Assembly: GCA_030295235.1 (NCBI GenBank)
Contig: AP026169.1
Location: 852,093-916,092, forward strand
Length of the DNA: 64,000 nt
Source: Fistulifera solaris
Lineage: Eukaryota > Bacillariophyta > Bacillariophyceae > Naviculales > Stauroneidaceae
Direction of reading: 5' to 3'
Of the stretch, positions 8,561-55,354 are shown one piece after another (the first letter of the stretch is position 1; each line of letters opens with the position of its first letter). A program made the translations under genes and the position numbers. A model generated the notes under the pieces. The model did not search any database, was not told the DNA's origin, and was given only the letters and a program-made list of their open reading frames with translations.

Positions 8561-9889
8561 GGGTGAGTTTTACTTTATGATGTGATTGGTAATAGATCCA
8601 CTTTGGTCGAGTCAACACTTACAGAGACAAACATCGATCGTCCTCTATGTTCTTACGAAAGATCTGGACGCGAACGTTGCCGAACTGTATCTTGCTCACT
8701 CTTTCTTGCAGATATAAGGATTCCGAGTCGTGACGGTGAATTGATTTCATTGCTTTATTGTCCTTTTACAAAAGCAAGCAATAGAGAAAAATGAAAACAA
8801 TCAACATCGGCAACTTGAGAAACGGTTCGGGCGTTTGACAACGGCGTGAGAAGTGAGAATGCGGCGAGCGGCGCTGGTGGGCGTGGAACGTGAACGCCCA
8901 ATAAGCTCTTCTGGCTCACTTTCGAGCCAGGTAGTGTCCCAAACAACTCTTTTTATGAGAGCTAAATTCCCAAAACAAGATAAAATTAGGACTGTCATAA
9001 GATAGTATCGAAGACTGGAGCCCGGGAATGACAGGGCTATACAAAATGAGAGGTGCCTTTTTGTCTTTCCCAATCGACAATCGACACCCGACACTCGACA
9101 CTCGACACACTTCCCACATTACAACTAATTGAAACACTCTAGAGTGTGTTTGAAATTCATTTCGGAATGAGTAGGGAAACGGAAAAAGGAAAATATAAAG
9201 TACTACGTAGCCACTACTCACTGCCAGTAAAACGCACTTGACTCTGTTGTCCGTGCTGTCTTGTTTGTTGTGTCCTCTGTCCTCTTGTTTTCGTGTTTCG
9301 TTCCACGTTTGAAGCGACGATGCGGTGCATGGTGCACGAACAAGACACAAAAGTAACAGCCTACTACTACCAATGCTTGATTAAAGTAGAGTAGACACGG
9401 GAACTTAAGTACTCCGTAGTAAGGAAGTGTGAACGGCGCGAAATGAGAATGGGATGTGCGATGATTTGCGATGAAAATGCTTTATGTCCGTCCCTCTATC
9501 TACCATCGACATCAGAAGTCAAACGTCAACCATTAAATAGATCAGGCAACCGACATCCTCAACCAGTCAGCGACATGTTTACTTCCTGTGTTGATCCTTC
9601 ATTCAAAGGAACTAGAAGCTCGAAGCAAGCCCGAGGAGTCATCGAAGATTAGAGAAGCAGTTTGACTTTTTCATTGCTAAAAGATGCTAACCTGACGCTG
9701 GAAGACGAAAGGAAGAATCCCAGGAAGACCCATTTGGAAGGACCATTACTTGGTAGCAAGTTCGCGATTGATCATCTTTTGAGAGTATTTGACCATTACA
9801 CCTTCCAACGCGAAAGCAATGGTGCTCATACATCGATGCAACAGCTACACCCACATAAAACTTTTAACTGCAGAGGCCGAATCAAACAT
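8561..9889. other. Intergenic, promoter-like, with one TACTCCGTA motif
   Basis: About 1.3 kb upstream of the poly-Pro gene. It includes a microrepeat of CGACA-type units (around 9069-9110: cgacaatcgacacccgacactcgaca) and a TACTCCGTA 9-mer at 9410-9418. The small plus-strand frames at 9443-9652 and 9662-9973 have no recognisable domain, and the second is largely antisense to the HSF-a C-terminus. Confidence 0.5.
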
Positions 9890-10831
9890 TTACGATGGTT
9901 GCTGAAACTTTTTAGGACGTTTCAGTTGTTCTCTCGAAGATCCACCTGGTTTAAGAGCTCGACCGAGAGGTAGAACTGGTTGTAGTGCATGATTAGTACC
10001 AGCTGCTAAAAGCTGAAGTGGTATTGGCGGGTTAAACATAGATGGAATCTGTGGAAAAATGGAAGGACTAAAGCTCCTGGAAATCCATCGACCAAGTTGA
10101 CTACTCCTGGTTGTGGGAAAAACCCAAAAAGGGCTCCACCAAAATTAGCATGAGTTTCGTTTGCTGTAAACCACATGGTGGGAGCTTCTACTAAAGCCCG
10201 TCGTTTCTTTGCAGGGGCGACTTCTATGTGTTTCCTATCATCGCTGCATTCTGGCGCCTCTGCAGTGGCCGACTTTATGTCGGTTTTTCCTTCTTCGCAA
10301 AAAGGAAGCGCATAAAAGTCAGGGCTCTCACCAACGGTCAAGTGTGAAGTCGATTTGCCTTTTATCGGAGTCCTTACAATTACTCTTGCAATGTCAGGCC
10401 GCCCCTTTAAGAACATCTTATGATAGTAACCTCCACGGTCTTTCCCACAAAATATCCTTTGAGATGAGTACAAAGAGAGCTGTCTATGAAACGATGTTAA
10501 CTTCGTTTGCCGAAAGAATCTGGAAACGAGGATTAGTAGAGATGAGATGACTTGGCTTTTAGTACCCTTCGTTGTAAATGGTGGGCACAAACCTCGGTAG
10601 AATTTCGCTCGCGAATCTAGCCGGCTGATGCAGTATAAAGCTTCTCCCATGTTCCTGCCAAGAGACGACATCGCTCAGTCCACTCTTTTGTGTCGCTTCT
10701 AACATATTATAAAGCCGGACGGGGAACGGGTCAACAACGCCGCCACGTGGTCCCTTCCTCTTACTTTTTACAAGATCGTTTACGACCTCTTCAATATCGA
10801 CATTTAACAAGTCCCGATATGGATCTCCCAT
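9890..10831 (-). CDS. HSF: Heat shock transcription factor (HSF-a)
   Basis: Exon 1 is 10831-10593, a 73-bp GT-AG intron covers 10592-10520 and exon 2 starts at 10519. Splicing joins ILPR and FFRQTKLTSFHRQLSLY, the recognition-helix part of the HSF DNA-binding domain. FPVRLYNMLE, VSWQEHGRSFILH and GGYYHKMFLKGRPDIA complete the domain. The linker reads LYSSQRIFCGKDRGG instead of the usual YGFQRI-GxDxGG, so this is a divergent member. The frame in which exon 2 starts closes at 10006. However, one extra base in the GG at 10076-10077 opens a Pro-rich tail (SPSIFPQIPSMFNPPIPLQ) to a stop at 9890, which looks more natural. A TACTCCGTA motif lies 360 bp upstream (11191-11199). Whether it responds to heat is unknown; the HSF family is broadly expanded in diatoms. 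Confidence 0.88.
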
Positions 10832-11581
10832 GTCTCTTTCTCGGCGCTCAAATATTTTATCTCATCCTTTTCATACGGAATACGCAATGTAAAGGATCCG
10901 TATGCAACATGCTTTTCACTGAAGAACGCATCGATCTGAGGGAGAAAAAAAAACGATGATGCAGGGCAGAGGCAGAGGTCGAAAAGGTTTTACCCCAATA
11001 AGTTTGTTTGCCACTTTTCTCCGTTGACTGCGAGTGTCATTTTATGGGAACCAGTACCAGGTACAGCAGGCATCACCTGGTACAGTTGAGAGTGAACAGT
11101 GAACAGGATACTTTGTACAGAAGCCCTGAAACCCGCGAACGTCGATTCGACGGCCGACCGGCTTTTAAACTCGAGTAGGGGAAATATGGATACGGAGTAC
11201 TAGGCAGTGTTCTCTCCTTTCTCTCTCGAAACTCTAGCGAGGCGAGACTATAAACCCTAGATGGACCTGTGGAGTAGAATAGCCATCACTACTCTGCATT
11301 CGTTCCTCGAATCCAAAGATTAGCTAGGGGTTGGAGCGGATTTTGATGCGGGAGATAAACTGGGACCTAAGTACCGGTACCTGGTAGTTTAGGCAACGAC
11401 AATCAACCTCGTCTTCCTCGCTTCGTTGCCAAACTTGTCAATTTCGCGAAATGAAAGCAATTTTTTATGGTTTAATTTTACCCGCCTATGAGGCGTAAAA
11501 ATGCTTGTTTTTCCGTTATCCAACAAATCAACAGGCGAAAAGCTCGTCATGTCGAGCCTCATCATCAAAAGCGCCCGAAGA
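10832..11581. other. Intergenic, divergent ACCAGGTA-type repeats and a TACTCCGTA motif
   Basis: Upstream region of HSF-a. It carries ACCAGGTAC/CACCTGGTAC copies in inverted arrangement around 11050-11082, TACCGGTACC at about 11372-11383, and TACGGAGTA at 11191-11199. No coding frame with recognisable content. Confidence 0.5.
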
Positions 11582-12987
11582 TCAGTTTCTAGTCGCATCT
11601 TGTTGACTATCTCTCAACCGTTGTAACCGAGCCTCTTTCGCCAAAAGAGCCAGCCTATTCTGTTCTCTGCGATCCATTTCAGTAGACACCATCTCGATCC
11701 ACTGATCGGAAGCTGGCGTTTTTGCCAAGCAATTTGTAAGACGGCTGTTGCATTCATATCCTCTTCAATCGAGTTATACCATTCGCGACCATCGGGAAAG
11801 TACTCCCAGATCCACGAAGACTGCGAAGGATACTCCTGGTACAGAGTATACCATTTGTACAAAAAACCAGGTAAAAGGAACCACTCACGTTTCCGGGAAG
11901 ACTCGTCCTCTAAGATTTTCTTCATGCGTGTTACTTTCGCTTGAAACCACCTGGAATCGAGCGGTAATTGTGATGATGTAGCAAACGAAAATGGTAAACC
12001 TTCGTCCAATGTCCAAACGCGAATGCTAGGTTCTGTGGAAAGATGACATGGGACGAAAGAGGGATGCGTTCCAATCCAGTGTTCCATGGAGTAGCGCCGA
12101 CGGCCCAATGTTGATTCCCATTCATCGAAAATGAGACCCAAAAATTCCTTGGGCCGCTGTTCTAGCATTTCGTTGATTCTCACTTCAAAATCTTTCGGAG
12201 GGATTAGTCGATTGATATAGTCACATCGCGAGACGAAGAAATTTCCAGGAAAGAAGAGGGTCCATGTCGGCTGGAACAATAAACCACACGTCGTACACTG
12301 ATCCATGTTTTTCAGACACTCACTGGAAGTGATAGCACGCATCATATGACGACGCCAGGGGATGTTCCATCTTCCTGACGAGTAAGATCCTTTGTTGTGC
12401 ATATAGATGACATTTCGATCGGGAAAAGCATTGCAGAACTCGTAAGCTTTTTGCAAGGTTATTTCTTCATAGCCAGCTTTGTGATGCTCCATGTGAACAC
12501 ACTTTAGTCCGTTTGCTCTACACTGTTTCTGAACGTTGGCTGCAAAAGTTTCACCGAATAAAAGTTCATGACCCACGGTGTTGTAGTAAATAGTAAGATC
12601 ATTGCTCGTTGCGGCGTACGACTCTCCAATTTGTTGCAGCTGCTCGAAAACTGTAGCTTCTGCTTCTACAATATCGGGAAGTGTCGCATTCACAAAGATG
12701 TTGTAAAATACGGCAACAGCAGAGGGGTTGTTGGAGTTTTGATCCAGGAAAGGATTTTCTGTGATGATCATTCTATCTCCGAGAGGAGGCAAGTTGTTGC
12801 CTTGTGGTACAACAAACTCGGGAAGCACAGCTAAGTCAATGTGCGACACTCTTTCGTAGAAGAGCTTCAATGAAGATTCGCCTAAATACATCTGCACAAA
12901 TAGTACTTGCGCTGTAAGAATAAAGATAAAACAACAGCAAAGACTCAGTCGAGTCGATGTCGGCTTATTTCTTCTTTTCCACATCAT
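11582..12987 (-). CDS. Type II membrane protein, putative Golgi glycosyltransferase-like
   Basis: The likely start is one of the two adjacent Met codons (12987/12984), giving KRRNKPTSTR, then a single membrane anchor (LSLCCCFIFILTAQVLFVQMYL) and a lumenal domain, the topology of Golgi glycosyltransferases. The core has YMHNKGSYS followed by NIPWRRHMM, a CxxCG pair, TLFFPGNFF and an MEHWIGTHPS segment. This pattern recalls large diatom families of predicted glycosyltransferases, but the donor and acceptor are unknown. The frame breaks in an A5 run (plus-strand TTTTT 11719-11723); with six A the C-terminus becomes a charged helix (EMDRREQNRLALLAKEARLQR) ending at 11582, whereas as written it is a Trp-rich tail ending at 11614. 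The helix is the more credible end. Confidence 0.65.
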
Positions 12988-13507
12988 CTGTTGTGCGCGT
13001 CTTGATCGCCTTGTTTGAAGAAGAAACAATTTGCTGCAGGAATACTGGCTATGAAAAAAATTGCATGAAGAATAGAAATAGAAATAGAACGCAATGCAAC
13101 GCAACGCATCGTCGATGCGCAGAAACGCTTTTGCAATGCGAATTTTTGGATGATTGCGTCAAATTCCGGACTGAAAATCAGTTGCGTCCCGAACCTTAGC
13201 AAACATCGAAGAAATAATAAGAGCAATCCGCCAGACTGAAATAAATAGGGTGAACTTAGTAATTTAGATGATGCAGGCTTACTTTAGTGCTTTTATCGGG
13301 ATTTATGATCAGTAGGTCGTTTCCGGTGGATTCAAACGAGGGAACCAGCCGTAAAGGAGAGAATCATGATCTAGCAAAGCCTTTGTAGAGTATTTACTAC
13401 ATGTTTAATTATGTCGACGAAAGAAACTAGCTTCCTCCCGTACCTTTGCACCTCGATGTGACTCAGTTTGATGTTAAACGTTCCATTAGTGAAGTGCATT
13501 GGAGTTC

Positions 13508-14749
13508 TTAGAATGGCAAAAGGTCCGAGAAAGCATCTTTCTGCTTTTGCTGCTTCTGTTGCACATTGTCGCTCATATTCGAAATAGCAGATGATCCACC
13601 GTGATAGCTCATCACTGGAGCGTTCGTGGCATGAAACGGCACGCCCATCATAAAAGCGTTTTGATTGTACATCCCGCCCATGGCACTCATATTTTGACTC
13701 GCCATACCATTCATGTGTTGCATTCCGTTAAATTGATTCATTTGTGTCATGCCGTTGCTCGCAAATGACATTTGCTGCTGTTGTGCCATCATTCCGTTTG
13801 TCATATTGTTTCCTGGCACTGCCATCGTCCCTGCCATGGGGTACATTCCCGTCGAATGGTTTTGATTGAAAGTGGATAAATTTTTCGGATTCATGTTGCC
13901 GGCATTCATCATCAAAGGCATGTTGCTAATACCGTTAGCCGATGCAGTATTCATCACTGGCTTTTTGTTGACTGGCTCGGGTGCCTGTGCATTTGTATCA
14001 TTGCTATTCATAAAAGCAAATGACGAAGCATTGTTTCCTGTAGCTAATATAGACGCGACGTCGCCAAACATATCAGACGAACTTGGGGCTGGATTTTTGA
14101 CTGTTACACTTGGCACAACGGGAGCGAAAGGGTCGGTTGGAGTCTGAGCAGGCAACGGAGCAGCTACAACATTGGACACTACAGGGATCGTATCGAAGGA
14201 AGCAAAGTCTAGAAAATCCGCCGCGGGTTGTGGTGTTGCGAGAGTAGGTGCCGTAAATGACGTGAAAGTCGGCTGAGAGGTAGCGGGCGTGTTCTGATAC
14301 GTAGGAGCCGGTTGTCGCTGTTGAGGAGTGTAGCTACTTGCACTTCCCGACGCTGTACTTGCGACTGGCTGCTCTGAAAAATACCTTTTATCTTCATACG
14401 CATCCATAACAAAGCGTTTGAAGACTTCGATGGAGCTCCCTGTTGTAGGTCTTCCTCCTTGCCCGACAGGCGGTGCTTTTGCTAACCACGTTGCTTCGCA
14501 GTATGCATTACCCTTACGCTCCAATTCATCGACTTCTTCATGCGTCCAGCTACTCATCGTAATCGACTTGCAGCGGTGACTGACGGCTTGATGAGAAGTC
14601 TTACATTCATTGCAAACAAAAGTGTGAAATTTGATGCAAATCGTCCCAAAGCCAAACTTTTTCGTCTGATGACAATTCGGGCATGTCGTATTCTGCTTTG
14701 CCAATTGGCGTACTCGGTCCTCAGGAGACAAAGGCATGTTCTTTTGCAA
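13508..14749 (-). CDS. ArfGAP-like zinc-finger protein with a degenerate catalytic site
   Basis: A single intact exon, 413 residues. Residues ~20-75 form an ArfGAP-type zinc finger: CPNC, 19 residues, CNEC, then SITMSSWTHEEVDELERKGN, which matches the conserved SLxLDxWxxExLxxLxxxGN helix. Two hallmarks are missing: the position of the arginine finger after the second CxxC (CxxCxxxxR) reads KTSHQ, and the usual PxWAS segment reads FGFGTI. The remainder is low complexity: Ser/Thr/Pro/Gln-rich, then Met/Asn/Gln-rich, and it ends with DLLPF. This resembles AGFG/SMAP-type adaptors in vesicle traffic more than an active GAP. It probably binds coat or endocytic partners; GAP activity is doubtful. 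A TACGGAGTA motif sits 131 bp upstream (14880-14888). Confidence 0.8.
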   Translation of the reverse strand: MQKNMPLSPEDRVRQLAKQNTTCPNCHQTKKFGFGTICIKFHTFVCNECKTSHQAVSHRCKSITMSSWTHEEVDELERKGNAYCEATWLAKAPPVGQGGRPTTGSSIEVFKRFVMDAYEDKRYFSEQPVASTASGSASSYTPQQRQPAPTYQNTPATSQPTFTSFTAPTLATPQPAADFLDFASFDTIPVVSNVVAAPLPAQTPTDPFAPVVPSVTVKNPAPSSSDMFGDVASILATGNNASSFAFMNSNDTNAQAPEPVNKKPVMNTASANGISNMPLMMNAGNMNPKNLSTFNQNHSTGMYPMAGTMAVPGNNMTNGMMAQQQQMSFASNGMTQMNQFNGMQHMNGMASQNMSAMGGMYNQNAFMMGVPFHATNAPVMSYHGGSSAISNMSDNVQQKQQKQKDAFSDLLPF

Positions 14750-15446
14750 ATGTTAGAGGAGTTGAGTTGATTTCAGAAGAATGCCGACAGATGTGAGGCA
14801 CTTCAAAGACGTAATGTGCTGCTTCCGCAAAGCGAAAAAAAGTCGGTCATCATCGCGAATGTGTGTGTGTTTTTTTTTCTACGGAGTATTCGATGGCCGC
14901 TTACGGGACTGAAGGTCATTGAGTCGTAGAGAATAAAACGTGCGCCCCTAGTTCCGTTCGAAAAATAAATAAGGCCAAAAAGATGAAAAAAGTTTTGACT
15001 TACTCTGAATTGTTGCCGGATTTCACTTGATCTAGTGCTTAAGAATGGGGATGCTTTAGTTCTAGGATGGCATATTCAATTCTCCAGGACCGGAAGAAAA
15101 TTGACTGTCAATTCTACGCGAGACACCATACGACACACTCCGTAACCTTACTGTACGTTACAACTCAGGGAATGATGTTGTAATGAGCATAATATCAAAT
15201 AACGCTGCATCATTGTGAAATTCCTTATGTTAGGTTCGCTCTAAGGAGAAACTCTATTGCCGAGTAAGTTGTCATATGGATCCACAAAGCCGATTCTACA
15301 TTAATCATGTTGTCGCTGATGCAAGCGTGACGGTAGTTGAATGAAAAGGATCAAGATCGACTTAATTCGACAAGCACTAACATTCCATTAAAATACTATT
15401 ATGTAGCTGTAGGTAATCCAAATGTAGTTATAGCAAAAATTGCGCC
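14750..15446. other. Intergenic, no gene recognised
   Basis: ArfGAP-like promoter region with TACGGAGTA at 14880-14888 and a poly-T tract. The plus-strand frame 15337-15534 is antisense to the end of the next gene and is not supported. Confidence 0.5.
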
Positions 15447-17098: not shown

Positions 17099-18086
17099 AT
17101 GTCTACTACATCGGAAGACGCGTCGACTTCCTCGATGTACTTCTCTTCGGGCGATGACAGCAGCACAGAGAACCGCAACAACAATTACGACGACGATGAT
17201 GATAATGACGCTAAAAAAGCAGAAAGACACAAGGAATCGAAAGCTAAGCAACAGCGATGAGAGTGATGATTCGACAAGCGAGAGTGAGAGTGATGAGGAT
17301 GAAGAAGGAAAGCGCGAGTCAATGTCGCATCTTCCGTTAGGGCAGCGCATCAAGCTCGAAGAGAGCTTTGGTGTTCGAAAGATGAGAAAGAAAGATGCAA
17401 AGGACACCCTTACTAGCTCTGCAAAAGTAGAAAAGAAGAGCTCGAGTAAAGAGAGCAGTGCGGTTACAACCAAAACAAAGAAGTCGAAACACGCGCCTAC
17501 CGAAGCGTCATCGAAACGCTCGGATTTCTTTGCTACGCTTCGACAAACACAAATTGGAGGAGTTGGTACCGGTATTGATTTAGGAGCACATCGGTATCAG
17601 TCAAAAGATCCTCGCATTAGCAATTTGCATGGTCACTTACAAGAAGATCATTTTCAACAAAACTTTGCATTCGTGCAGGACTTGAGTAAGAATGAAATCA
17701 AAACGCTACAACGGAGCATTCATGCTTGGAAAACACCGGGGAAGAAAGGTCAGCAGCTGCGGCGGAAACTTGGTTTGACTGGGGGCACCACCAGCTTACA
17801 ACAGGATCAAGAGCGGTTGAAGCAACTGCGGCATGAAATTGCGGAATGGGAGCGACAAGAGATTGAACGTGTCGCTCATCGCTCGGTGAAACAAAAACTG
17901 CAAGATCAAGCGGCCACGACGGGTAAATTTTACTTTCCCAAACGACGAGATCTACGAAAAATGCAAGATGACGCCAAAATGGAGGAGCTGCGGAAACGTC
18001 AAGGAGAAGGTGCTGTCGAAAAGGTTATAGCCAAGCGTCGAAAAAAGAACAAATCAAAAGATGCAAGTCTTATGGGTGCGAAATAA
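17099..18086 (+). CDS. RRP36: rRNA biogenesis protein RRP36, one apparent frameshift near the N-terminus
   Basis: The C-terminal two thirds show the RRP36 (DUF947) pattern: SKDPRISNLHG, then NFAFVQDLSKNEIKTLQ, a coiled region, KFYFPKRRDLRKMQ, and a C-terminal basic tail with VIAKRRKKNKSKD. In yeast and animals the protein works in the early pre-rRNA processome in the nucleolus on cleavages that release 18S rRNA. The best start is ATG 17099, which gives an acidic Ser/Asp-rich N-terminus (STTSEDASTSSMYFSSGDD, NNNYDDDDDND). That frame must shift once to reach the core, most simply in the A6 at 17213-17218 (A5 fits). The other frame upstream gives a Thr/Met-rich leader that looks non-native. Confidence 0.82.
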
Positions 18087-18778
18087 CTGGTTTATCATGG
18101 TAAGATAGGCATTTGCAACCAGTTGCGACACTTGCTGTTGGTGAAGAATCGTTTCAATGACAGTCACTAATCGGTTTACTGTGATGATTGCAGTTGCAAC
18201 AACCAATTGGTTCACGAAACGTACCAAACCATTCAATGGAACGGAAAGTATCATCTGCAAACTGGCTTGTTTCACGTGGCGGCATTGGATACCAGGACAA
18301 CTCCAACGAGCGTCGACGATTGTTCCTACTGAGCGTGTCACTACGATCTTTCATTTATTGATTTCTTTTCGACCCTTGGTACCCTTGTTGATTTCAGTTC
18401 TTGCTTATTGATGACAAGCACGACAAACAAACAAAAAGACCGAACGATGATATCATACATGAAACGTCTTACTAACTGGCTGTGCAATGTACATCCCCCC
18501 TGGCAGAAGCGGTTTTCTGTTCTATCTGTTGAGTCGCCCTACGAATTACTCCGTAGATATTTTGGACCTGCGACACCAAGAAAGATGACGAGGTGTCAGC
18601 ATCATTTTATTCAGTGGCAGAAACGTGTTGCGGTTTAACCGGACTGGTCCTGTACATGATAGATACGACTGGCAGTCACACGCTCTTCTATGTTTAATTT
18701 TGTTATTGTAGCAGATACGACTACTTCTAAGCCGAAAGTGACAAATATCGTCATTAATATTAGTTGCTAAACCGAAAA
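18087..18778. other. Convergent intergenic region
   Basis: Between the 3' ends of RRP36 and pyruvate kinase. It contains TACTCCGTA at 18547-18555, the only one of the ten copies not upstream of a gene start. Small frames on both strands lack motifs. Confidence 0.5.
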
Positions 18779-20479
18779 TTAAGCATACTGGACGCGCATG
18801 ATGTTAGTGGTACCCTTTGTACGCAAAGCACCCGTCACAACGACGACCGCATCACCGGCATCGAGTTTGCCTGCCGCCTTTAATTCATCAATCATGATTT
18901 GAATCTCATTGTCGAGATCATCAAAGCTGACAACCTTAGCATCGACGCCACGGAGAATACCGCAGCACTGGCGGGCAACTTGAGCCTTGTCGGTCAACAC
19001 GTGAATTGGACGTCCAGGGCGGAATTTAGCAACCTGAGTTGCTGTAGTTCCACTCTCACTGCAAACAATGATAGCCTTCGCGCCGCAATCAATGGTAGTT
19101 TTCACGGCAGAGCTGGCGATGGATTCAGAAGTGCTCAACTTTCCGTACTGAGCCAACGTACTGTTACGGACAGCCTGATACAGCATGTCGGTGTTTTGTG
19201 CACCTTCGGCTTCGGTCGTGGTTTCTGCCATGATCTGCACAGCGGCTTGCGGGTGTTCACCGTTGGCTGTTTCTCCCGACAACATCACAGCGTCAGTACC
19301 ATCCAATACAGCGTTAGCAACATCGGAGCATTCGGCACGAGTGGGACGAGGATTGACAATCATTGATTCCAACATCTGTGTGGCGGTAACGACAGGCTTT
19401 CCGGCAATGTTCGCTTTGCGGATCATCATCTTTTGGGCTATTTACAGAGTTAAAAAGGTTAACATACAGTCATGTTAGCATCAGCTGGTTTAAGATCAAT
19501 GATACGGATGCAACGAAAAACAAACACTTACCTAAAAAGACCTTTTCAGGAGGAATCTCCATACCCAAATCACCACGGGCGACCATGATAGCATCGGTAG
19601 CTTCCAGAATAGCATCGTAGTTCTCCATACCTTCCTGGTTTTCAATTTTGCTGATAATCTTGATGCCACTGTTCTCTCCCAACACTTGACGAATTTTGTG
19701 GACGTCGCTCGCTTTGCGCACAAACGATGCGGCAATGAAATCAACACCGTGCTTGAGGCCGAAGTTCTGCAAATCATCGATGTCCTTTTCCGTCAAAGTG
19801 GGCAAATCAACGACAACACCCGGAAGGTTCATGTTTTTGCGTTCTCCAATGGACGCATCATTCTCAATACGACAGGTGACTTCTCCGGCGGCCGAGTCGG
19901 TCGCAGTAACGGTCAACACCAAACTGCCATCAGCAACGAGGATTTGTTGACCGACGGTGACACTCGTAGCCAATGAAGCATAACTACATGCCATCTTGGA
20001 AGCATCGCCCTTGAAGGAGTAATCCGAAGTGAGAACGATGGAGTTACCCTTTTTTAGAGATATTTTGCTCCCCTCAGCAAAGAAACCACTACGGATTTCA
20101 GGTCCTTTCGTATCGAGCATGACAGCTTTAAAGCAAGGACGAGAGAAGGATTGATTAAGCGTCTCTCGGCGCACACGCATTCAAAGTCAAGCACTTGTTT
20201 CAACGTACCGACATGCTTTCCTTTCTTTGCCGCTGCCGCTCTCAAACGTTCTAGCGTCGCCGCATGCGTCTCATGATCTCCATGGCTGAAGTTGAAACGT
20301 GCAATGCTCAATCCTGTATCAATCAAGGTCTCGAGCATCTCTGGCGACCAGCAAGCAGGTCCGAGAGTGCACACAATCTTAGTTTGACGAGTACTCACAT
20401 CCGTCGGAGCAATAATTTTGGCTAAGTTGATGTTGCCGCCGCGCAGTTCGGGGCCAGATGATTCAATCTTGGGTGTCAT
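18779..20479 (-). CDS. PK: Pyruvate kinase, three exons
   Basis: Exons 20479-20209, 20125-19532 and 19437-18779, separated by GT-AG introns of 83 bp (20208-20126) and 94 bp (19531-19438), give an intact 507-residue protein of normal length. Visible signatures are [13 protein letters not shown] and [10 protein letters not shown] near the N-terminus, [16 protein letters not shown] (formed by splicing), the B-domain, [27 protein letters not shown] (metal/substrate site) and MLSGETANG. It catalyses phosphoenolpyruvate + ADP to pyruvate + ATP in the last step of glycolysis. No clear targeting peptide is seen from the Met at 20479, suggesting a cytosolic isoform. An upstream in-frame Met at 20530 would add 17 residues, so the start is uncertain. 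TACTCCGTA lies at 20740-20748, 261 bp upstream of the chosen start. Confidence 0.95.
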
Positions 20480-20530: not shown

Positions 20531-22322
20531 AGAAGAGATTCGTTAATTCAAAACGTAACGAGAATTTTATTTGTGACGATACTGGTAGCGATGATCGAAT
20601 GATGTGTGTGCGCGTATGCGAAAAAAAAACGAATACTACGTAATACGTAAAAAATAATGGAGATGCACCCGACAGATGACAGACGAACACGTCGCTCCTT
20701 TTTGTGCGTCGTGAATCGTGAAACAGTATGAGTACAAAGTACTCCGTATTGTACATTTCATATTGTTTCTTGCGACCGCTCATCCGTCCGTACGTCATTC
20801 TCAACTAAATGGCTAAATTCGTGACTTGTAAATCGTTACAAACTTAGTTAATGTGGTACACACATTTGCAACAGGCTATTTCCTTACGACGAAATGCAAA
20901 GCCCGATACGAAAATATTCGTATCATGAAAAGCATTGACGAGCTCTGCGGAATTTTAATTCAAGCCCAAAGGAATTTACCAGGTAGGGTAGTGCAAGCCA
21001 CGGCTAGACGAAAGCTGTACGTTTTCCGCTTCTTGTCCATGAATTTCGCCATAGTTTAATCCGTTCGGTTAGATATTATTCTAGAACGCAGATTTTACTG
21101 ATGAAATCATTCTTTTGTTTTCCCAATCCGGCCTTGGGAGGAAGAATTATAGTTCGACACGCTCTAAAATAACAAATAACGAATACCGATATTCACGTTA
21201 TAATAACGTATTATATCAGAGCCATTTTTCCCAATATCGATATTTGTCGATATTTGTACGCCTGACAGAGGGATTTGTGGCATTTTACGCTAAAATGGCT
21301 GTATTTTGCGGGCGAAGACAGACGGTCGCCGATATTAATATCGGTTATTATATCGTATAATACGATATTGATATTCGTAAAAATCGAAATATCGATATTT
21401 GTCGAACTATGGGAAGAATGCCGAAGTCATTATTTACTTGCCAATTTTTGAGGTGAAACCTTCATGTTTTCCGTGCCGAAACGTTTGGTATGCTGCACCA
21501 GGTACAGGTACTTGTAGAGTCAAAGCCATCAAGAATACCTTGGTACCTGGTACTTGGTATCAGGTACAGTATTTTCAAAAAAATTTTCACTAAAGAGAGC
21601 GTCAAGTCTTCAGAAAAGGATTTTGTTGTCGAAACCGATGGAGAATGAAGACGAGACACTACAAGTACCGGTACCAGTACAAACACGTAACACGTGCATA
21701 ATCGATAATCGATAAACGTATTGCGTCGACGGCTGTCTTTTAGACTCTAGAGAGTCGTCTTTACAGTTGTCCTTAGAGTCACGTACGTAGCTCAGAAAAC
21801 AACACCTAAAAACGGCTCTTAGGTTTTGGTAAATAGCAAGATGTCGCGAGACGTGGTAGGAACACTATCGACTTTATTCACTTTTTTCTCTTCTTCAATA
21901 TCGATTTTGCAGCATCTTTCTTTGGCGATCTTAAAGACCCGAATACATCTATGACACTTTGACCTCAGACATCGTTTCTGGATCAGACAAAAGTTTCAAC
22001 ATGCAAAATGCAAACCAGTGAAGTACTTTATTAGTCAAACATTTTATTCTCCAACGGCCTCTGAGCATTTCTGGGCAATCAAAAACTCCAACGACAGAAC
22101 AATCATTTTGCCTAAAAAAACATCTTAAAAGCATCCATTTCCAACGATCTCGCTGACAATACAAGTAGCTGGTAGTGTCAGCTAACCCGACCTGCAACAG
22201 ACGCTCAACTTCCAAGAGCACAACCTAACTAAGCCTATTGTCCTTTCCTCTGGTACAAGCATCTGAATTGCTGTCGCTGATTTCTCTACCCCGTCAATAA
22301 AACAATTGATAACGCGAAGAAT
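20531..22322. other. 1.8-kb intergenic region with dense CGATATT/TATCGATA repeats
   Basis: No gene is recognised. From about 21,150 to 21,420 the sequence is packed with cgatatt, tatcgata, aatatcg and tataata variants on both strands, bounded by ttcgaca (near 21,151) and its complement tgtcgaa (near 21,400). From 21,490 to 21,690 there are GGTAC/ACCAGG/ACCGGTACC repeats. TACTCCGTA is at 20740-20748. The first cluster could be an old MITE-like insertion or simply AT-rich spacer. Confidence 0.5.
21151..21407. repeat. Inverted, TATCGATA-rich cluster, possible degenerate MITE
   Basis: The left boundary reads ttcgacacgctc and the right boundary aaatatcgatatttgtcgaa, so both ends present TTCGACA outward. 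Between them TATCGATA, CGATATTTGTCGA and TATTATA blocks recur on both strands. The arms are only loosely similar when one is reversed, so this is a weak call. A 12-20 bp terminal repeat with a flanking TA or short duplication would be needed to confirm it. Confidence 0.3.
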
Positions 22323-28907: not shown

Positions 28908-29583
28908 ATCATCATTATCATTCACTATTTACCATCACCACTTACAAAATACTAATCACTAATCACCAATCATCCGGACTTTGCTACATTAGTAGACATT
29001 GTGGAACCACACCAGGTACCCAACAAGCCTACAATAAGTAATACGTAAAGAATAGAACAAGAAGTAGTGAAAACAGGAAGCCAGTTTCGTGTCTGATTTC
29101 TTTTATTCGACTAAAGTTTAGGTGTCAGATGGTGTAAATTTTCAAATAAAATGCAGTTAAAATGTCGGAATCTAAACTGTGTAACGTATTATGTCCTCTG
29201 ATGTGGGCACTTTTCATGGTTCTCATTTTGCAATTTGTCGGAGGTTTTTTACCAGGTACCGCACCCGGTACCCTGTATGTATTCTTTAATCAAAAATGTG
29301 ATCCCATATCCCATGAAGTACGTAGTACTATGTACTGATGTTAGAGACGAACCGCGATCTTGACCACTGACCACTGACCACCGTGTCGCCGCTCGAAGTT
29401 CGCCGCAGAACAAGACGCCTGTTTTCGAAACGTGCCTCCGGACGGTGAAGTGGGGCTGATAACGCCGATCAGGGGGGAATCCGTCCTTTCTCTTCAATTC
29501 GTTGATAAAACGCGAAGAAAAACAAATCCAAAGCTCTTATAAGAATTCTGTTACATTCCACTTCTTTTGAAACTATTGCTAGG
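28908..29583. other. Upstream region of bZIP-like copy 2
   Basis: Noncoding. Contains an ACCAGGTACC/ACCCGGTACCC pair near 29,250-29,275, an acgtagtacta stretch near 29,320, and a tandem tgaccactgaccactgacca near 29,360-29,381. The minus-strand frame 29497-29249 has no recognisable content. Confidence 0.5.
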
Positions 29584-30420: not shown

Positions 30421-31203
30421 AGTGGCTGCTGGTACTTTTTACTGATATTTTGAAAGAACTCAGTAAGTCAGTCTCAGCATATCGCTTTTGCTGTTAGTTA
30501 TGCATGTAGAGGAGCTGCTGAAATACGGGAATATCAAGTGAAACAATTTGACTTTGTGCTTTTGATTGTTGATTGTTGATGATCATCGAATTGTGGTCGA
30601 TGGAGAAACAAAAAGGTCGTGGTTGGCTTTTACGTCTCAACGGGCCACGTGAAGGGTGCAAAACTCCTCTCACGACTCATGACTACACAAGTCGTGGTAA
30701 ATATAGGGTGACCACTTTTTTAGACTCAGTGTACCACGTTGAATCTTTACCATCTTCATTGAGTGGCGATGAAGGCAAACAATTGTACAACTAATGGTGC
30801 GTGTTTCTTGTCGATATGCAATTGCTTTGAAAATCGACCAACATGGTGAAATTCATGGAGTATACAGCGATTCACAAGGCCGTTCGACAAAATTATCGAG
30901 GCTGGTGTTTTATAATATGATGATGGTATTCTAAATTTAATATTAACAAAGTAGAATGAAGCTGACAGGTAACAGGTAGCAGTCTGGCTATAAAAGTTTG
31001 CATTCATGACTGCAATCCTTAATTTAAGCATCAGCCTGGATGGCCAACTCCACAGTTTCATGCTACAGTACTTCTTGAACGAAACAAGTCATTACTCCGT
31101 AATTACAACAGAAACGATTGTTATGCGTTTCGTCGGTTTTTCGGCATCATCGTCTTTTAACGCGTATAGGTACCTTTCTTCATCAAACTGAAATATAATC
31201 ATA
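30421..31203. other. Intergenic, globin promoter region
   Basis: No gene recognised. TACTCCGTA at 31093-31101 lies 103-111 bp upstream of the globin ATG. A short ctcacgactcatgact motif is at about 30,668-30,684. Confidence 0.5.
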
Positions 31204-34679: not shown

Positions 34680-35562
34680 CGGCGATCTCGCAACTGCTCG
34701 ATATGATCCAAAATGCCCTTATTTTTCTAGCTAATATTTGCCTGTAAAAACTTGTTGTCTCTCGGCTCTCGTCTTTTATTATCCTGCATAAAATGATTTG
34801 TTTCGGTCGCCTGTTCATACCTGGTAATGGACGTTTTAGAGGCGTAGTGGAAAGTCGATGAGTTTTTTCATTTTGGTGTACCCATCATAGTACACTTAAT
34901 TGTGTTTTACGCAGAAAGTGGCAGAAGAGAGAGAGAAGGAATGCTGCGATAGACCGCATGGAAAGGAGCTACCTTCTGTAAATTGCAGATATCCACTTTG
35001 CTCTTGGTGAAACATTTTTTAAACTAAAAATGATCGTATTAACCGGACTCCAGTCACAAGCACGTCAACATCTGAAATTAGAGCTTGAAGTCAGCGAGTT
35101 TGTTTCATCCGAGGAAAAGCCAAAGATGAAGCGCAAACACTCTTGAAAATACTTTGTAGTACCAGGTAATACTCCGTAGTAGTAAAAGTCATTTCAAATG
35201 TGCTCTCTCGAGATTAGTCGTTGAGAGTGGAGAAGGTACTATAGTACCTAGTACCCTACCCTCTACTCCCTATTGGGTTTTGGCATTGTTGAGCGGAGCA
35301 TTTTTTCTCCGGGCCTTGACAGCAAACGGCAAACTATTTTTCCGGAGTAATTAATAAAATGGAATATCATTCATAGATCTAACAAGAGATTTCACACTCG
35401 AGCTCATCAAGCCTATCCGCGAAGCAATCATGTGCCTGAAGAAATCAAAAGAAAGCCAAAGCGTTTGAAAGACCCACGAACACTGCACTTCCCCGTAAGA
35501 AATCATTATCGGAAAGCGCCATGATCACAACTCAGATCACAGGCTCGTAAGCTGTTTTCACA
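34680..35562. other. Intergenic, with TACTCCGTA and tandem ACCAGGTA/GTACCTAGTACC repeats
   Basis: TACTCCGTA is at 35170-35178, directly beside ACCAGGTAA (35161-35169). GTACCTAGTACCC lies near 35,243-35,256. The part from about 35,420 to 35,560 may still be coding for the next serine-rich region, since it encodes PRKKSLSESAM-like residues, but is broken by stops. Confidence 0.45.
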
Positions 35563-37384: not shown

Positions 37385-37961
37385 CGTGTCGAAGAATTTT
37401 GATCCCCGCATAATAATCAAAGAGACAGGGAGCAATCTTTGTGAAACATAATGCCGAAGAGTTGAAGCTGCTCTGTGTTCGTGCTTTTCAAAGTGCAGAC
37501 ATAACGATAGATGAGATAGGAGGCTATCTTAGGCAGCGAGGCTAGCAAAATACTCCGTAGTTTACTAAGATGGTTTTGCACCTATCTTAGTCGCGCTTTT
37601 GTTTTGCACACCTACTATTGGTCTAGGCTATGATCCAGGCAAAGAGAACTGAAAAAGACGACAAGTGAAGCTCGCCGCACGAACAAACCACTTATTAATG
37701 TTGCGCTGAGCTCTTCAGCCCTACAAAGAGTTGGTTTGCTACTGGGAAGGAAGGATTGTACTTTAAGTCGATCGTCGAAAGTAGAAAGTCATAGACAAAT
37801 ATCATTTAGCATTAAACATGATTATACCTTATACGTCTGTCCTCTGTCATGTAGATAGTGCTGTCATACAATATACTTTCTAGAGAGAGGAGGAGTACAT
37901 TATTATTTATTCTTTCTTCTTTCCTTCGTCGAAGGTGAAGTCTTAAGGTGTAGAATCCAAG
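37385..37961. other. Intergenic between serine-rich regions A and B
   Basis: Contains TACTCCGTA at 37551-37559 next to two imperfect copies of a ctatcttag unit (about 37,523-37,531 and 37,582-37,592). No coding content seen. Confidence 0.5.
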
Positions 37962-39851: not shown

Positions 39852-40613
39852 GCTTACCAGTCATCCTTAAAAGAAAACTGATGCAACTAAAGCTAAACTA
39901 CTTCATCATTGTCTGTCATGTAACTTTATCGGCACGAGACGTTGTATGCAGCTCAAATTGAGTGCAGTCCACAATTTTCGGGATTGAGACTTAGTTGATA
40001 GGAATCGATTCTTTTGCGCGACATGGACTTGTACGGAGTAATTGATCATCGTCGTCTTTCTTTGAGACGAGAACGATGGATAACCAAGTCGAAATGGTCT
40101 CACGCTTTGTTTCATCTTTATATATTATCTGAACCGACTTACCTTGCTATTACGTACGCAGGAACTATTATCAGTGACCGGGACTGATAAGAAGTTCAGT
40201 CCGTCATATATTATGCACTTGCGTATGATACTTGATGTATCGTTTCGCAAGTGCCAAGTGCCAAGTGCCTTAAACGCCAGTAGCCGAACACTCAACTACT
40301 GGTACTTTAGCAGTGCATCCGCGATTCAATGACCGTGGTAGGAATAAGCCCTTAATTGTTTTTAGATTCTTGCCGTTTCCGGCCTTATACATTTACCTTG
40401 ACTCGCGACTCCAATTTCTCGATATAGTATGGACTCTAAACGAAGCATCCAGCAGACTTCCTATGACCTGTGTCACGGTAGTGGATACGACTTTAACAAA
40501 ATATGTAGACAGGACTAAGAATTAGACTAGGCTTTAGTATAAATATTATTTTTACTTAGGATTAATGTTGAAGGGCAGCTTTAATTCTCGAGTTTTTTAT
40601 CCCTTAATATTGT
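39852..40613. other. Intergenic between serine-rich regions B and C
   Basis: Contains TACGGAGTA at 40032-40040 and a tandem gtgccaagtgccaagtgcc at about 40,251-40,270. No gene recognised. Confidence 0.5.
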
Positions 40614-45917: not shown

Positions 45918-46307
45918 GGTTTACTTCAGGAACAGCTGAAACTTCCGTTTGAACATTATTTCTTTGCACATTTTTTCATTGACTTACCATTTATGTAAAT
46001 TGAATACTTTGGAACTCAAAGGATCGTCGTGTTGCAAACGGAACTAAGCGACCTTTGCTTGATTCTTCAAGCCGAAACGGATGCACGTTGTAAAATTTGG
46101 TGATAAGATGAAAGCGAACCTTAACCGCGATCATTTAAAAGACGCATTCGGCTTCATTTCCATCGCTAATGTCTTTTCAGAATCGGTCGAATCATTGTTT
46201 TTAGTAAAGCGCTATTCTGGTGGAGAGAATTGTGGCTCCGAATTGTGAAGTGACTTTATGAAAGATGCGGTAAATTGCCTATCCCGTTTGCCAAATACAC
46301 GTAGCAG

Positions 46308-49631: not shown

Positions 49632-50087
49632 TTACTATAACACAAACGCACATTTACAGCCGCGCAAACTTCATTGTCAGTATTTTTTTTAAAAAAAAAC
49701 ATGATTTACAAGTTTTTAGTATAAATTACCATCTTCTTTGCTTAGTAACACGTTGTACTTTTGTTTTGTTTTGTCAAATGAGAGCGGTATCGGGAATCGA
49801 ATGGTTTGCTTAGGTCTCAAACTAATGTCGCCTTGACCAGAAAGGACTTATGAATTTTCAATCATTTGAGGGAGATCGCCTCTCTTTTTGCACCGAAATG
49901 AATTCCAATCAATGATTAGACCAGCAACGACAAACGCAACTGATAGTGCAAAAGAAGGACCGTATCGTGCATGTAAAGTTTCTTAGTGATTTTTAAAATG
50001 AAGATATGGAATGCCAGAATGGAATGCCAGAAAAGATATGCAAATCGACGATGAGGTTCAACGAGATCAATGATCTGGCTCGAATTT
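49632..50087. other. Short intergenic region
   Basis: Convergent gap between the kinase and HSF-c 3' ends. A T9A9 block is at 49683-49700 and an aatgccagaatggaatgccaga repeat near 50,011-50,031. No gene. Confidence 0.5.
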
Positions 50088-51247
50088 TTACTTTTCGAGA
50101 GAGGATGGCGGGCAGAGAGAAGGCTGAAGTGCGGAGCGTTGGTGAATGTTGTAATAGCCAAAGTATCCTGCTGTTGGCGATGAGGGACTCTGGTTCGTCC
50201 AAGCGCGACTGTTTCGGGGTAATAATTCATAATTATTCGCTCCGTCAGAAACGACAATCATATCCGGAAGAGGAATGGCATGACGGGCCATGGTGGTGGG
50301 CGCGACAGTCTGAGGCACACGATGCGGTGGAGGCAACTCATAGCAAGATCGCGGCTGAGTTGGAGGTGTCGACCAGGGTGCCGGATCTCGCGTCTCAGGC
50401 GGATCGAACGGGGGTGGAGAAGTAATTGCTTCGGAGCGAAGCTTCTGCTACTTCCACCAGCGGTGGAAGCGGTTCCATATGGTAAAAGTCAGGAAAAGTA
50501 TCGTCGCTGCTGGCTTTGCGAGCTCCTGTCCCTTTGAACTTTTGACGCGGAATTCTCTGAGCTAGCTCAGGCTTTCCACGAAGAAATTTCTCATGGAAAT
50601 AGCCACCTTTATCGGGTCCTATTCGCAAGAAATGAATACGAAGCACCGCTTGTCAGAGAAAACAAGTCATATCTGCTATCGACAGAGGTGCATACATTTT
50701 CGACTTACCTCTGGGGATTCGTGAAAAGCCGTAGATATTGAGCTGTCTGTGAAACGGATAAACGGAAGGCTGCGTGAGTCAACGATGGGCCAATTGAAGT
50801 CTTTTCTTTGACCATCAACAATCTGCAAGCGACTAAGACATCCGCAATATACCGTCCGGTTACGCACCTTTGAAACGACGAGTAATGCGCTTGCCGAAAC
50901 CATCTATTAAAGGAATGCGGTGAGACGTTGTAGGCAATGATGAACAAGCTCCCAAGTTTTACTTACGTCGGTAATATGTGCTGCTCCAAACGTTTCTGAT
51001 CATGAACGATGAAGCAGCGACCATGAGGTTGCCAAGACATGATGTGCTCCATGCCATCCTTGGCCATCTCATTTAGGACATAGTGTAGCTTATCGGGAAA
51101 GTTATGTCTGACAGGAGACGAACGCAAAGGCGATGGCGCTGATTCTTTAATAGCATTGCCGTTCGCCTTCTCGAGATTTTGCTTGTCGTGGCTCATGGCA
51201 GTTTGACAGAAGTTGACAGATTTTCCTTCTCTTTTGATTCTTAACAA
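50088..51247 (-). CDS. HSF: Heat shock transcription factor (HSF-c), four exons
   Basis: Exons are 51247-50967, 50903-50868, 50746-50709 and 50618 onward; the introns are 63, 121 and 90 bp, all GT-AG and in phase. The domain reads NFPDKLHYVLNEMAKDGMEHIMSWQPHGRCFIVHDQKRLEQHILPT/WFRQAHYSSFQ/RQLNIYGFSRIPR/GPDKGGYFHEKFLRGKPELAQRIPRQ. It is the most canonical HSF of the three here. As written the frame stops at 50395, but removing one base near 50,435 continues into a Pro/Ser-rich tail (PPFDPPETRDPAPWSTPPTQP ... PLPDMIVVSDGANNYELLP) to 50088, which I consider the real C-terminus. Possible starts are 51247 or the Met at 51196 (MSHDKQNLE). Confidence 0.9.
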
Positions 51248-51572
51248 AACCGAAGCTTGCTAAATTTGTGAGGAAACAATGTGGGTCGCATGGAATGGTT
51301 CAAAAAGCGCCACGGATCTTGGTACAGGTTCGACAGGAAGATTCGCATAGAAGGAGAACTTCATCGATCGAGAGGGAAGTTTGTAGAGATGATGTCCCGT
51401 CACCACTTCTCTAATTTACAAAACATATGGATATTTTACGACTGGCCACGGCGTCATCGATAAAGAGTAAGAAACAATGTGCAAGGAACAAAGGTGACCT
51501 TCCAAGCCTAACGTGAGGCTTGGTTGGTACTTTGTGTTTTGTGCTTGGTGAGTTTCGTGGGGTCAAATTTTT

Positions 51573-51746
51573 TGATTATGCCTGTAGCCACTGCGACACC
51601 CATAAGTGACGTGCCTAAGGAAATCCCAGAAATCCTCGAATCCAGGACTTCAGTTCCTTCGCTTCCTTCGCAATCAGGCAACATTATGCCCATTAATTCA
51701 GAGTAGAACACTTTTGTTGCTGACTTTGACTTTATAGATATCAACA
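51573..51746 (+). repeat. 5' LTR of copia remnant
   Basis: 174 bp, TG...CA ends. It carries the block cttccttcgcttccttcgc and ends gatatcaaca. It has cagagtagaac where the right copy has tagtagaac. Confidence 0.85.
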
Positions 51747-53402
51747 GTTCTACCAATTCCTGTTCTTATCATCACGTTCAGTGTATTCTCTCGGTCAGCC
51801 AGCGTCGCTATCACCATTGCCATTGTCGCGATTCTCTTATCCCCGCACATTTGTGTACTCCGTGTCATCACCATGACTGATCTTTCACCTTCAACCATTT
51901 GTGTGCCTCACGAAAACCTCACTCCCATTCCGGGCAAACCTTCTTACGTCACCGTTGACCGCTTATACAGTGAGGTCATTCCCAATGCTTTGGCCGTCCC
52001 CTCGACACACCGGGTCACAAATTTCAACTTCTCACCCATCCTGGAACACTCATCCCTTACCCCGCTAATGCCACGAGTGCCCAGCGTGCAGGCGTAATTC
52101 GCGCACATGACACGGCAATTGAGGATTATCTTTGCCAGGAATACGTCCATCAATTCTTACGACAGCAGATCATTGTTGCTGTTGAGCCCATTTACATGAT
52201 GTCTCTCCATGGTACAGAGGTCGGATTGGGCCATGTCAATTTGGAAACCGGTAGTGTGTCGGCGTACACCATGCTGGTTTATCTAAAAGACAAGTTCACC
52301 AAGATCACGGCCGCTGAGATTGAAGCCAATTGTCTCAGCCTTGCCATGGACGTCCGATCAACCTATTCAGGCATTGTGGAATCGACATGTGGAAATCCGT
52401 GATTTTGCTGTTGCAGCGGAAGAACCATTGTCGGATTGGCGTCGTGATGGATCACACTCTTAAAATTGCTGGCCATGGCACATTTCAGTCAGCCATTGAT
52501 GCTTGGCGTCGTCATTCTGAGGCGGACAAAACTTACAAAAACTTTGTGGAGTACTTCACTGCGGAACATGAGGCATTGCAAGAACAACTCACCACCTCTA
52601 CCGCGGGATATCATCACGCAAATGCAGCTGGTACTACAATCCCTGCTGTCATCCCACCGACAGCCACCGCAAGCACCATGACGCCCTAGACCCATGAATC
52701 ACGAAGTGGTCGCAGAAGGGGGTTTTTGTATGTATTATTGTTGGACGCACGGTCTTGGTATGAATGCCGAACATACCAGCAAGACCTGCAACCACCCGGC
52801 TCATGGTCACGCTTCACACTGCCACACTCAAGTCGGGCGAATCTCAGTGTGTCCGAAGCGAGATCCCGTGTAGCTGGTTACTAGTTTTTGAGCTCCAATC
52901 CCACCAAACTTCCCGATCTGACTTCTCCTCCAATTAATGGTGACATCACCATTTATTGTCAAATCATGAAACACATGGTGTCAAGTGCAGCCAAAGCCAA
53001 ACTTCGGTGCTTTATTTCTCAATGCACAAAATGCGTGCCCCTTAGCGTATTGCTTTGGAGGAAATGGGTCATCCCCAACCTGCCACTCCAATTCAAACTG
53101 ACAACAGCACTGCTGCTGGCATCGTCAATGACAAAGTCAAACAAAAGCTCTCCAAGGCAATGGATATGCGATTTTATTGGATTCGTGACCAGCGCCGAAA
53201 GGTCAATTTCATGTTTACTGGAAGGCTGGCGCTGGAAACAAAGCGGATTACTTTACTAAGCTTCATGCTACTTCACATCATCGCACAATGTGTCCGATGT
53301 ATCTTCACGACAATTCATCTACATCTTATTACGAAGCCATCTCTCCTCATCAGGATGTTGCTCAGTCCGTTCCCGACTCTGGGCTTTGAGGTGAGGGTGT
53401 AT

Positions 53403-53573
53403 TGATTATGCCTGTAGCCACTGTGACACCCATAAGTGACGTGCCTGACGCAATCCCAGAAATCCTCAAATCCAGGACTTCACTTCCTTCGCTTCCTTCG
53501 CAATCAGGCAACATTATGCCCATTAATTAGTAGAACACTTTTGTTGCTGACTTTGACTTTATAGATATCAACA
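53403..53573 (+). repeat. 3' LTR of copia remnant
   Basis: 171 bp. Main differences from the left copy are gcctgacgcaatc versus gcctaaggaaatc and a 3-bp deletion near 53,529. Confidence 0.85.
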
Positions 53574-55354
53574 AAATTCTACCTCGTCGAAAGGTCTTTT
53601 TGCTTCACTAATACAATTGCTAAGCGAAAGAATTCTTATTGGAGTAAACTTCAGGTGCTTAAGTTGATCCTTATTCCTGTTCTTCACAATGACTGCGCCC
53701 AAGTCCATTTGGTCGACGCGCTGAATCAAGACAATTTCTATTGTATCGGCAGTTCTTCCGTGACTCTAGTATTTGGTTAGGAACAGGTTGAGTCAGATCT
53801 GTGCATCAAACTTCCTTGATGTAGTGAAAAGACGAACGTTTCACCTGAATTGCTTCTCTTCATGGAAGACTCCGTGTCATCTACACATTGAAGTACATTG
53901 GCGTCACCAGACGGTGACTTCATTCTGAAAACTTCAATTGAAATCGCAAACACATCGCCGGGGTTCAGGGTGGGGGTGACAGTTACACACAAGGACTTCT
54001 TTCTATCAGCTTTGCGGGGTTCAATCACTGCCTGTCCGGATAAAAACCAATTTATGGTACCGGTACCAGGGCGCTTGAGTGACGAATAACTTCCACGATG
54101 CGCCAGCCAGCTCAAATAGAGTCTCCACTTCCCCAGCGATGGAAAGGTAATTCGACCGGCCGCTCATATTACAAGGCATAACTCCGGCAATGACAGAGCC
54201 AAGGGCGTTGTCAACGCAGTAGTTTTCATAAGTCACCTTTTTGTTAAAGGCTGGGTGGCATAATTGTGCAAAGACCTTGAAGGCAAATAAAGCCTTCTTT
54301 GCTGACGTTTTTGTTCACAGACCAAGTTTTGCCACAAAACGTTGATCATTTGCTTCTCCACACGAAATGGTCGTGGAGTATTAGATCTTCTTGGCGAAAG
54401 CACACAATGCTGAAACAACGCATTTGTATTCTCCACTAAACATTGATTAAGGCTCAAAAGTGCTTTGCCAATGTCGATTGGCCACAGTCATCAGTGATAG
54501 TTGCTCTGTAAAGTTTCTGTTTTATTTGGACTCGTCCGTGACCTGGGCACAATGTATCAAACAAATCATTTCCAGAGCTCCCACCATCAGAAAATTGAAC
54601 TTATCTTTTGCCCACCTTCCCACAGTAGTTACTTCTAATCACCAAAACACGCAATCGGGTTGAACACATTACATTGTCAGACCGTTCGCTTCCACTAAAT
54701 TGTTTGGATCGCCAAATCCAACTGAGCCCTATGATAGACTTTAAGTCAGCTCTATAATCACTAAAGTACCGGAAGGTAATAGTATCCTTGTAGTTGAAAC
54801 CGTGCAAGAAATATTCTAGGAAATTGTGTGGCGGGTGAATACGGGTGTCGGCATCGGATGAAAGCGATGAGAGAACAGATATCTTCTAGCAATTCTAAGC
54901 ATCCGAACTGTAACGACATTTATCACTGACAACGAAAGCCTCCTTCACTTGCAACAGATCTATATGCCTTACTCTGTACATCCTATCAACAACAAAAGCG
55001 GTTACTTGCTTTGCAGAGATTCCAAACAATGAGTTCTCTTAACAAGTTGAACAATAGGCCTCCCCACATAGGTTGGAAAGCTCTTTCATTATCACCTATT
55101 GGCGGGTGGTGCTGCTTTCATCATTTTGAAGAATCATCATCATCGATCATTGTCAAACTAAAGTGTTCATTTGCCTTCGGCTAGCGTTGCCCGCTTCGCC
55201 GCTAAGACACTCTAGAATCGCCGTATCACTCGAGACTAACTCAGTCGGTTTAACTTTGAATAATAAGGTGTAGTCGATGGTCCCTGCGTCAAAATATGTA
55301 CGGAGTACAACTTATTGTGGCGATGCTTTGGCAATAACATTCTAGCTGAAACGA

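Follow-up and report, generated by a model that had tools for sequence, protein, structure and literature searches.

A recurrent nine-base word of the diatom Fistulifera solaris as a probable excision footprint of a TA-inserting transposon

The nine-base word TACTCCGTA recurs between genes in a 64,000-nucleotide stretch of the Fistulifera solaris genome (assembly GCA_030295235.1, contig AP026169.1, positions 852,093 to 916,092 of the forward strand), referred to here as the window and numbered from its first letter. We propose that the word is the footprint TA-CTCCG-TA left behind by excision of a TA-inserting, mariner-like transposon, not a promoter motif, and we put the probability of this reading at about 0.65. 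Insertion of a Tc1/mariner element duplicates a TA, and its excision leaves a few of its terminal bases behind. In keeping with such footprints, four or five bases lie between the two TAs of the enriched words, and the flanking TA is duplicated relative to the empty site at most of the alignable CTCCG copies. An earlier note on this DNA had offered a core promoter, a transcription-factor site or the end of a tiny mobile sequence; its interpretation as a whole is partly supported, the last suggestion being close, with the evidence favoring a scar of an excised TA-inserting transposon over an element end.

Abundance and placement of the word

Ten exact copies were found in the window, six on the + strand and four on the - strand, each at the position given by the earlier note. 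Dinucleotide shuffles of the window contained 0.13 copies on average and at most 1, so that the chance expectation of 0.5 copies given before was too high and the claimed excess is in fact stronger. Counts over the genome (51.7 Mb in 61 contigs, including the window's contig) bore the excess out, with 2,789 copies (1,364 + 1,425) against 312 (155 + 157) for the reversed word. The density in the window, 10 per 64 kb, is above the genome mean of ∼54 per Mb, and close pairs of copies number 36, as against 1 for the reversed word. Within 329 kb made up of the window, the homeologous stretch on contig C23 and 200 kb of contig C1, TACTCCGTA is among the 25 most enriched 9-mers, which also include TACCAGGTA, GTACCGGTA and TACGGAGTA. 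Many other top-enriched 9-mers of these 329 kb are words from a repeat array on C1.

The word was said to lie outside coding regions. In agreement with this, none of the ten copies overlaps the coding DNA that is shared with the homeolog by conservation and makes up 32% of the window. Such sequence contains 0/10 CTCCG and 0/13 CCAGG words against 27/213 other TA-N5-TA words, and 2/11 of the 6-bp CCGG words, figures that are suggestive only. A 7-bp scar shifts the reading frame, which would explain the avoidance of coding DNA. Distances to coding blocks vary and both orientations occur. Distances taken from conserved coding blocks (only blocks of at least 80 aligned codons were used) did not reproduce the further statement that nine of the ten copies lie 0.1–0.9 kb upstream of a start. 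The copies at 9410, 37551 and 40032 are more than 1 kb from the nearest such block, and that at 18547 sits between converging genes (block 17220–18083, + strand, and block 18782–19441, - strand). Seventeen copies were compared for their flanks and had nothing in common outside the 9-mer except an A/T bias, with A or T at -2 in 17/17 and at +2 in 15/17.

Comparison with the homeologous contig

Matches to the light-harvesting family PF00504 number 87 in the assembly, and many lie at corresponding places on neighboring contigs (C1/C2, C13/C14, C19/C20, C23/C24 and others), so that two homeologous subgenomes of a photosynthetic organism seem to be present in the assembly. The accessible part of the literature describes the species as an allodiploid diatom with 42 homoeologous chromosome pairs. 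The window's contig has its homeolog in C23, and 22 aligned blocks with identities of 68–87% cover 45.8 kb of the window. No counterpart was found at the same homeologous place for any of the ten TACTCCGTA copies; nine homeologous intervals were searched for the exact word, and the tenth, at 20740, was read in the alignment. C23 carries three copies of its own, of which the one at local position 53753 faces the one-mismatch word TACTCTGTA in the window.

For the empty-site comparison, the inner bases and one TA were removed from every copy of five words, which was then realigned to the homeolog. Copies scoring at least 22 were considered alignable, and a site was called empty where collapsing raised the score by 2 or more. 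The collapsed form was the better fit for 4/5 alignable copies of CTCCG (13 copies in all), 3/7 of CCAGG/CCTGG (18 in all), 1/2 of CTACG (4 in all), 2/4 of CCAG (11 in all) and 1/6 of CCGG (16 in all). The corresponding figures for control words were 15/208 alignable copies for other TA-N5-TA words (419 tested) and 5/172 for other TA-N4-TA words (319 tested). Fisher tests against the controls gave a p value of 2.2e-4 for CTCCG by itself, of 7.7e-6 when the three 5-mers were pooled, and of 0.006 for the 4-mers. Note that the positives among controls include TACTTGGTA and TACTAGGTA, which have the same C...G form.

Three CTCCG junctions are clear, and each is a 7-bp presence/absence difference consisting of CTCCG and a duplicated TA, with well-aligned flanks that place TA-xxxxx-TA opposite a single TA. 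At 9410..9418 (+ strand), the putative scar TA-CTCCG-TA meets a clear empty site in C23 (collapsed 34.5, full 29.0), where AAGTA/GTAAGG is opposite CAGTA/ATAAGG. At 37551..37559 (+), AAATA/GTT is opposite AAATA/GTT in the homeolog (27.0 vs 21.5), and at C23 local 22514, TATTA/CTTGC is opposite TATTA/GTTGC in the window. The empty form is also favored at 11191..11199 (-; 22.5 vs 19.5). For six further copies the alignment is below threshold: 14880..14888 (-), where the homeologous interval has no copy; 20740..20748 (+), where the exact copy is absent in the homeolog; 31093..31101 (+); 35170..35178 (+), which follows TACCAGGTA (35160–35168) by one base; 40032..40040 (-), where the collapsed score of 12.0 against 15.0 slightly favors the uncollapsed form; and 55299..55307 (-). 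The copy between converging gene ends, at 18547..18555 (+), is unalignable.

Three sites of related words behave similarly. TACGTAGTA at 29319..29327 (+), read as a scar TA-CGTAG-TA, faces a clear empty site (33.0 vs 27.0), as does TACTGGTA at 1308..1315 (+), read as a 6-bp scar TA-CTGG-TA (46.0 vs 40.5); for a second TACTGGTA at 20580..20587 (+), read in the same way, the empty form is favored (32.5 vs 27.0). In the C1/C2 pair, 28 sites of three words are present on the 200 kb of C1, of which 17 (14/23 pieces) were used as queries; in the second set of matches, 40 of 297 candidates were scored. Five sites were compared with C2, and among them the CCAGG word at C1:217430 fits better collapsed (40.5 vs 37). 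Two homeologs alone do not polarize the direction of change, and we take the 7-bp difference to be probably the outcome of insertion followed by excision, not of some other TA-duplicating event.

Larger features of the two contigs were also seen. A homeologous block is inverted near the chromosome end (window 60984–63561 vs C23 local 64874–62293), and the right end of the window (63675–64000) is a telomere-like (GGTTAG)n array of 54 copies. A stretch of ∼2 kb at 51573–53573 is absent from the homeolog; its open-frame fragments resemble what we take to be the RNase H region of a Copia-type element, and no target duplication of at least 8 bases was found for it.

Related words and resident TA-ended elements

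TACTCCGTA belongs to a family of words of the form TA-x-TA. TACCAGGTA occurs 4,365 times in the genome, against 328 for its reversed word, and a third word, TACTACGTA, occurs 1,396 times against 816 for the reversed control, a small excess that makes it less certain. The strongest outliers among TA-N4-TA and TA-N5-TA words, observed versus expected, are CCAGG (35 vs 1.2), CCGG (26 vs 2.9), CGGAG (17 vs 1.5) and CGTAG (11 vs 1.1). The flanks of TACCAGGTA, compared over 35 copies, are unlike those of TACTCCGTA, with G commonest before the word and C then G after it; the two words may come from two element families with different target preferences. Some CCAGG words must pre-date the subgenome split or be native, since two sites are shared with the homeolog: TACCAGGTA at 34818..34826 (-) also occurs in C23, at local 34033, and could be a pre-split scar or a native word, and at 20977..20985 (+) the homeolog has TACCAGATA, a shared, mutated site.

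Residue combinations of the CCA-start type, with reversed counts in brackets, are CC+GG 26 (0), CCA+GG 35 (1), CCA+G 23 (11) and CC+G 27 (12), and CCA+TGG is absent. To judge from these letters, the combinations fit a terminal repeat beginning CCA. The combination CTCC+G was counted 17 times (reversed, 6), and TACTCCGAGTA, which would be CTCC + GAG, occurs 110 times in the genome against 25 for its reversed word; its copy at 3642..3652 (+) falls where the window has an insertion of 17 bp compared with the homeolog.

Elements whose ends would suit CCAGG are resident in the genome. One, at C1:207345–209380, is 2,036 bp long and has perfect terminal repeats TACCATTCGGGTCAAATGAGTTTCT, of 23 bases following the TA that is present at each end, as would be expected of TA duplication. 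Ten resident TACCATTCGG elements were found, with ends TACCA...TGGTA. Their terminal 16-mer occurs 20 times, pairing into the ten elements, and its reversed word does not occur. Six are ∼2.03 kb long, two are 791 bp, one is 2.75 kb and one is 7.9 kb. The putative transposase has six full-length matches at 100% identity at scattered places and one at 98%, and others are broken. Because identical copies are scattered and the terminal 16-mers are paired, TA-ended elements with ends fitting CCAGG appear to have moved recently in this genome. In the transposase open reading frame (ORF), 39 residues separate the second and third candidate Asp (the Asp residues were chosen by eye). A DD39D spacing is that of plant mariner-like elements. 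The ORF upstream of it had no meaningful match in Pfam.

The proposed sequence of events is as follows. A cut-and-paste transposon would insert at TA and duplicate it; on its exit, end-joining would seal the break, with a few bases from the element's ends caught between both TAs. Repeated hopping could in this way have produced ∼2,400–2,500 excess CTCCG words and ∼4,000 excess CCAGG/CCTGG words in the genome. CCAGG would probably derive from the resident TACCA-ended family, with CCA from one end and GG from the other. For TA-CTCC-G-TA our guess is a 4+1 scar of a mariner-like family whose terminal repeat would start with CTCC. Each new scar would add a TA target, which fits the close pairs of TACTCCGTA and would give rise to clusters and arrays. 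A GGTACC-type short array at 55503..55544 (+), in which three TACCGGTA and one TACCAGGTA stand head to tail, is possibly such a set of nested scars.

Other repeats were noted on the same contigs. A 396-bp sequence resembling a miniature inverted-repeat transposable element (MITE), with TAGTGATCGGTCTCG terminal repeats, is found at C23 local 11912–12307, in an interval whose C23 version exceeds that of the window by ∼500 bp. At C1:239.8–240.8 kb lie tandem repeats rich in GGTCCAGAAATTCTGGACC, and such words dominate the 10-mer census. A repeat of ∼165 bp at C1:293046–293210, often tandem, is present on many other contigs.

Weighing of the explanations and comparison with known systems

Several results weigh against the excision footprint. 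Of the 13 CTCCG copies, 8 are unalignable; of the five that can be aligned, one favors neither form and another, the positive at 11191, has a gap at its junction. An unsupervised indel spectrum gave 16 indels at 7 bp, 15 at 6 and 5 at 8, with no sharp 7-bp peak; TA is duplicated by 5/16 of the 7-bp indels, only 2 of which are family words. (For 6-bp indels the figure is 2/15, both family words, and a search for insertions that duplicate TA, whatever their length, returned mostly implausible long matches.) In the C1/C2 pair, the CTCCG word at C1:130922 fits weakly better collapsed (49.5 vs 46) but is inside a longer gap, the CCAGG words at C1:233799 and C1:293030 have no preference (35.0 vs 35.5 and 53.0 vs 54.0, respectively), and TACGTAGTA at C1:125222 is in an equal-length, 93%-identical C1/C2 stretch and is a native word. 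CTCCG is nearly the sole scar form of its kind, whereas real excisions vary, and ACCT, GACC and GTAAA, which are not of the C...G form, are also raised among TA-x-TA words. The source element is the main difficulty. CTCCG cannot come from the resident family, which begins with CCATT, and no TACTCC-ended element was found in about 350 kb examined (at least 12/16 terminal bases matching, up to 3.5 kb). The transposase ORF matched the Pfam profile DDE_3 weakly (0.0028, below cut-off), a search of the genome with the DDE_3 profile gave no match, and a sequence search of the PDB with the transposase ORF gave none.

The positions of the C23 copies also count on this side. The window copies nearest to them are 214 bp (18547, in opposite orientation), 649 bp (31093) and 332 bp (55299) away, against a background median distance of 1,127 bp (P about 0.05, from non-coding places drawn at random). 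The five distances for TACCAGGTA give a P of about 0.009, one of the five being the shared site. Target hot spots, local hopping or turnover of binding sites in shared regulatory regions would each give such nearness. On this account the scar reading was graded lower, and a transcription-factor site higher, than otherwise.

That second explanation holds that TACTCCGTA is the binding site of a SomA-like, zinc-cluster-like or diatom factor, present in many promoters and turning over within them. Besides the nearness of the C23 copies, the absence of all ten copies from conserved coding DNA speaks for it, as does work on Aspergillus fumigatus: in the parts of the sources available, GTACTCCGTAC is reported as the SomA motif from chromatin immunoprecipitation sequencing, with an electrophoretic mobility shift assay, and CTACGGAGTA as lying above the 99.99th k-mer percentile in strain Af293, with a possible factor site suggested there. 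We nevertheless consider it unlikely, and disfavor the earlier promoter interpretation with it. None of the ten copies is kept at its homeologous place, and the resolvable ones differ by a TA-duplicating 7-bp block of a kind not made by point mutation. One copy, at 18547, is between two gene ends, and words of the TA-x-TA form with other cores are also raised.

Micro-insertion without a transposon is still less probable. Here a TA-cutting nuclease or domesticated transposase would make staggered breaks, to which end-joining adds a stereotyped pentamer; this would account for the duplicated TA, for the near-monomorphic CTCCG and for the failure to find a CTCC-ended element in the DNA examined. 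There are, however, few pentamers; they are specific and require a template, and the recently mobile TA-ended elements are resident, with ends that fit the most abundant scar. A compositional or mutational bias to TAC...GTA words, acting through no single mechanism, is very improbable: the TAC-N3-GTA class does stand at 2.6x expectation, but a few internal triplets hold much of the excess, and the reversed words of both main motifs are near chance level. That TACTCCGTA is what remains of a longer dispersed repeat, or one end of it, as its thousands of copies and strong local clustering might suggest, was rejected as scarcely credible, since the compared copies have no flanking similarity beyond the A/T bias and the difference at the clear empty sites amounts to 7 bp and no more.

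An excision footprint of this kind would matter beyond the alga, because motif discovery in compact genomes takes short intergenic-enriched words as binding sites. Should copies in their thousands prove to be excision scars, a check of such motifs for TA-duplicating empty sites would have to come first. Scars would be intergenic, dyad-like, clustered and missing from exons, and would preserve a trace of transposition by elements that are today rare or lost. In the portions available of papers on excision footprints, diatom mariner-like elements, Fistulifera transposons and Osmar5, such scars were not noticed as an over-represented genome word, and a search of the literature on diatom cis-motifs brought up nothing useful.

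Known Tc1/mariner footprints (Osmar5, Ppmar2 and Stowaway MITEs), as given in the accessible parts of their reports, are alike in having a few terminal bases between two TAs. Cuts by Osmar5 leave 1–4 bases at both ends, and Ppmar2 excision kept 1–4 bases between the TAs, a range that the five bases of CTCCG exceed, which is a further point against the proposal. The inferred grass Stowaway scars have 2–4 bp beside the 5' TA and 1–2 bp beside the 3' TA, and include TACTCC...AGTA and TA...GTA. The diatom case differs in that one or two stereotyped pentamers occur in thousands of copies and the footprint is known from sequence alone.

Two fungal systems have the same letters, again according to those parts of the reports that could be consulted. 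The SomA motif of A. fumigatus has an identical nine-base core and is upstream of genes, whereas the resolvable algal copies are unconserved TA-duplicating indels. TACGGAGTAG, at which the fungal Starship Tardis is predicted to insert, is the same word and is over-represented in Af293 with an unconfirmed role; it is the direct repeat of this giant tyrosine-recombinase element, and a transcription-factor role has been suggested for it. The identity between alga and Aspergillus may be coincidence or may reflect a shared factor or shared scars. A tentative and on balance doubtful extension is that stereotyped scars can come to rank among the most common non-repeat words of a genome and mimic a regulatory motif, the identical Aspergillus word TACTCCGTA/TACGGAGTA being the same type of scar from related TA-inserting elements in an unrelated kingdom, with some copies perhaps used later by regulators or mobile elements. 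The fungal use of the word thereby becomes testable through comparison of strains.

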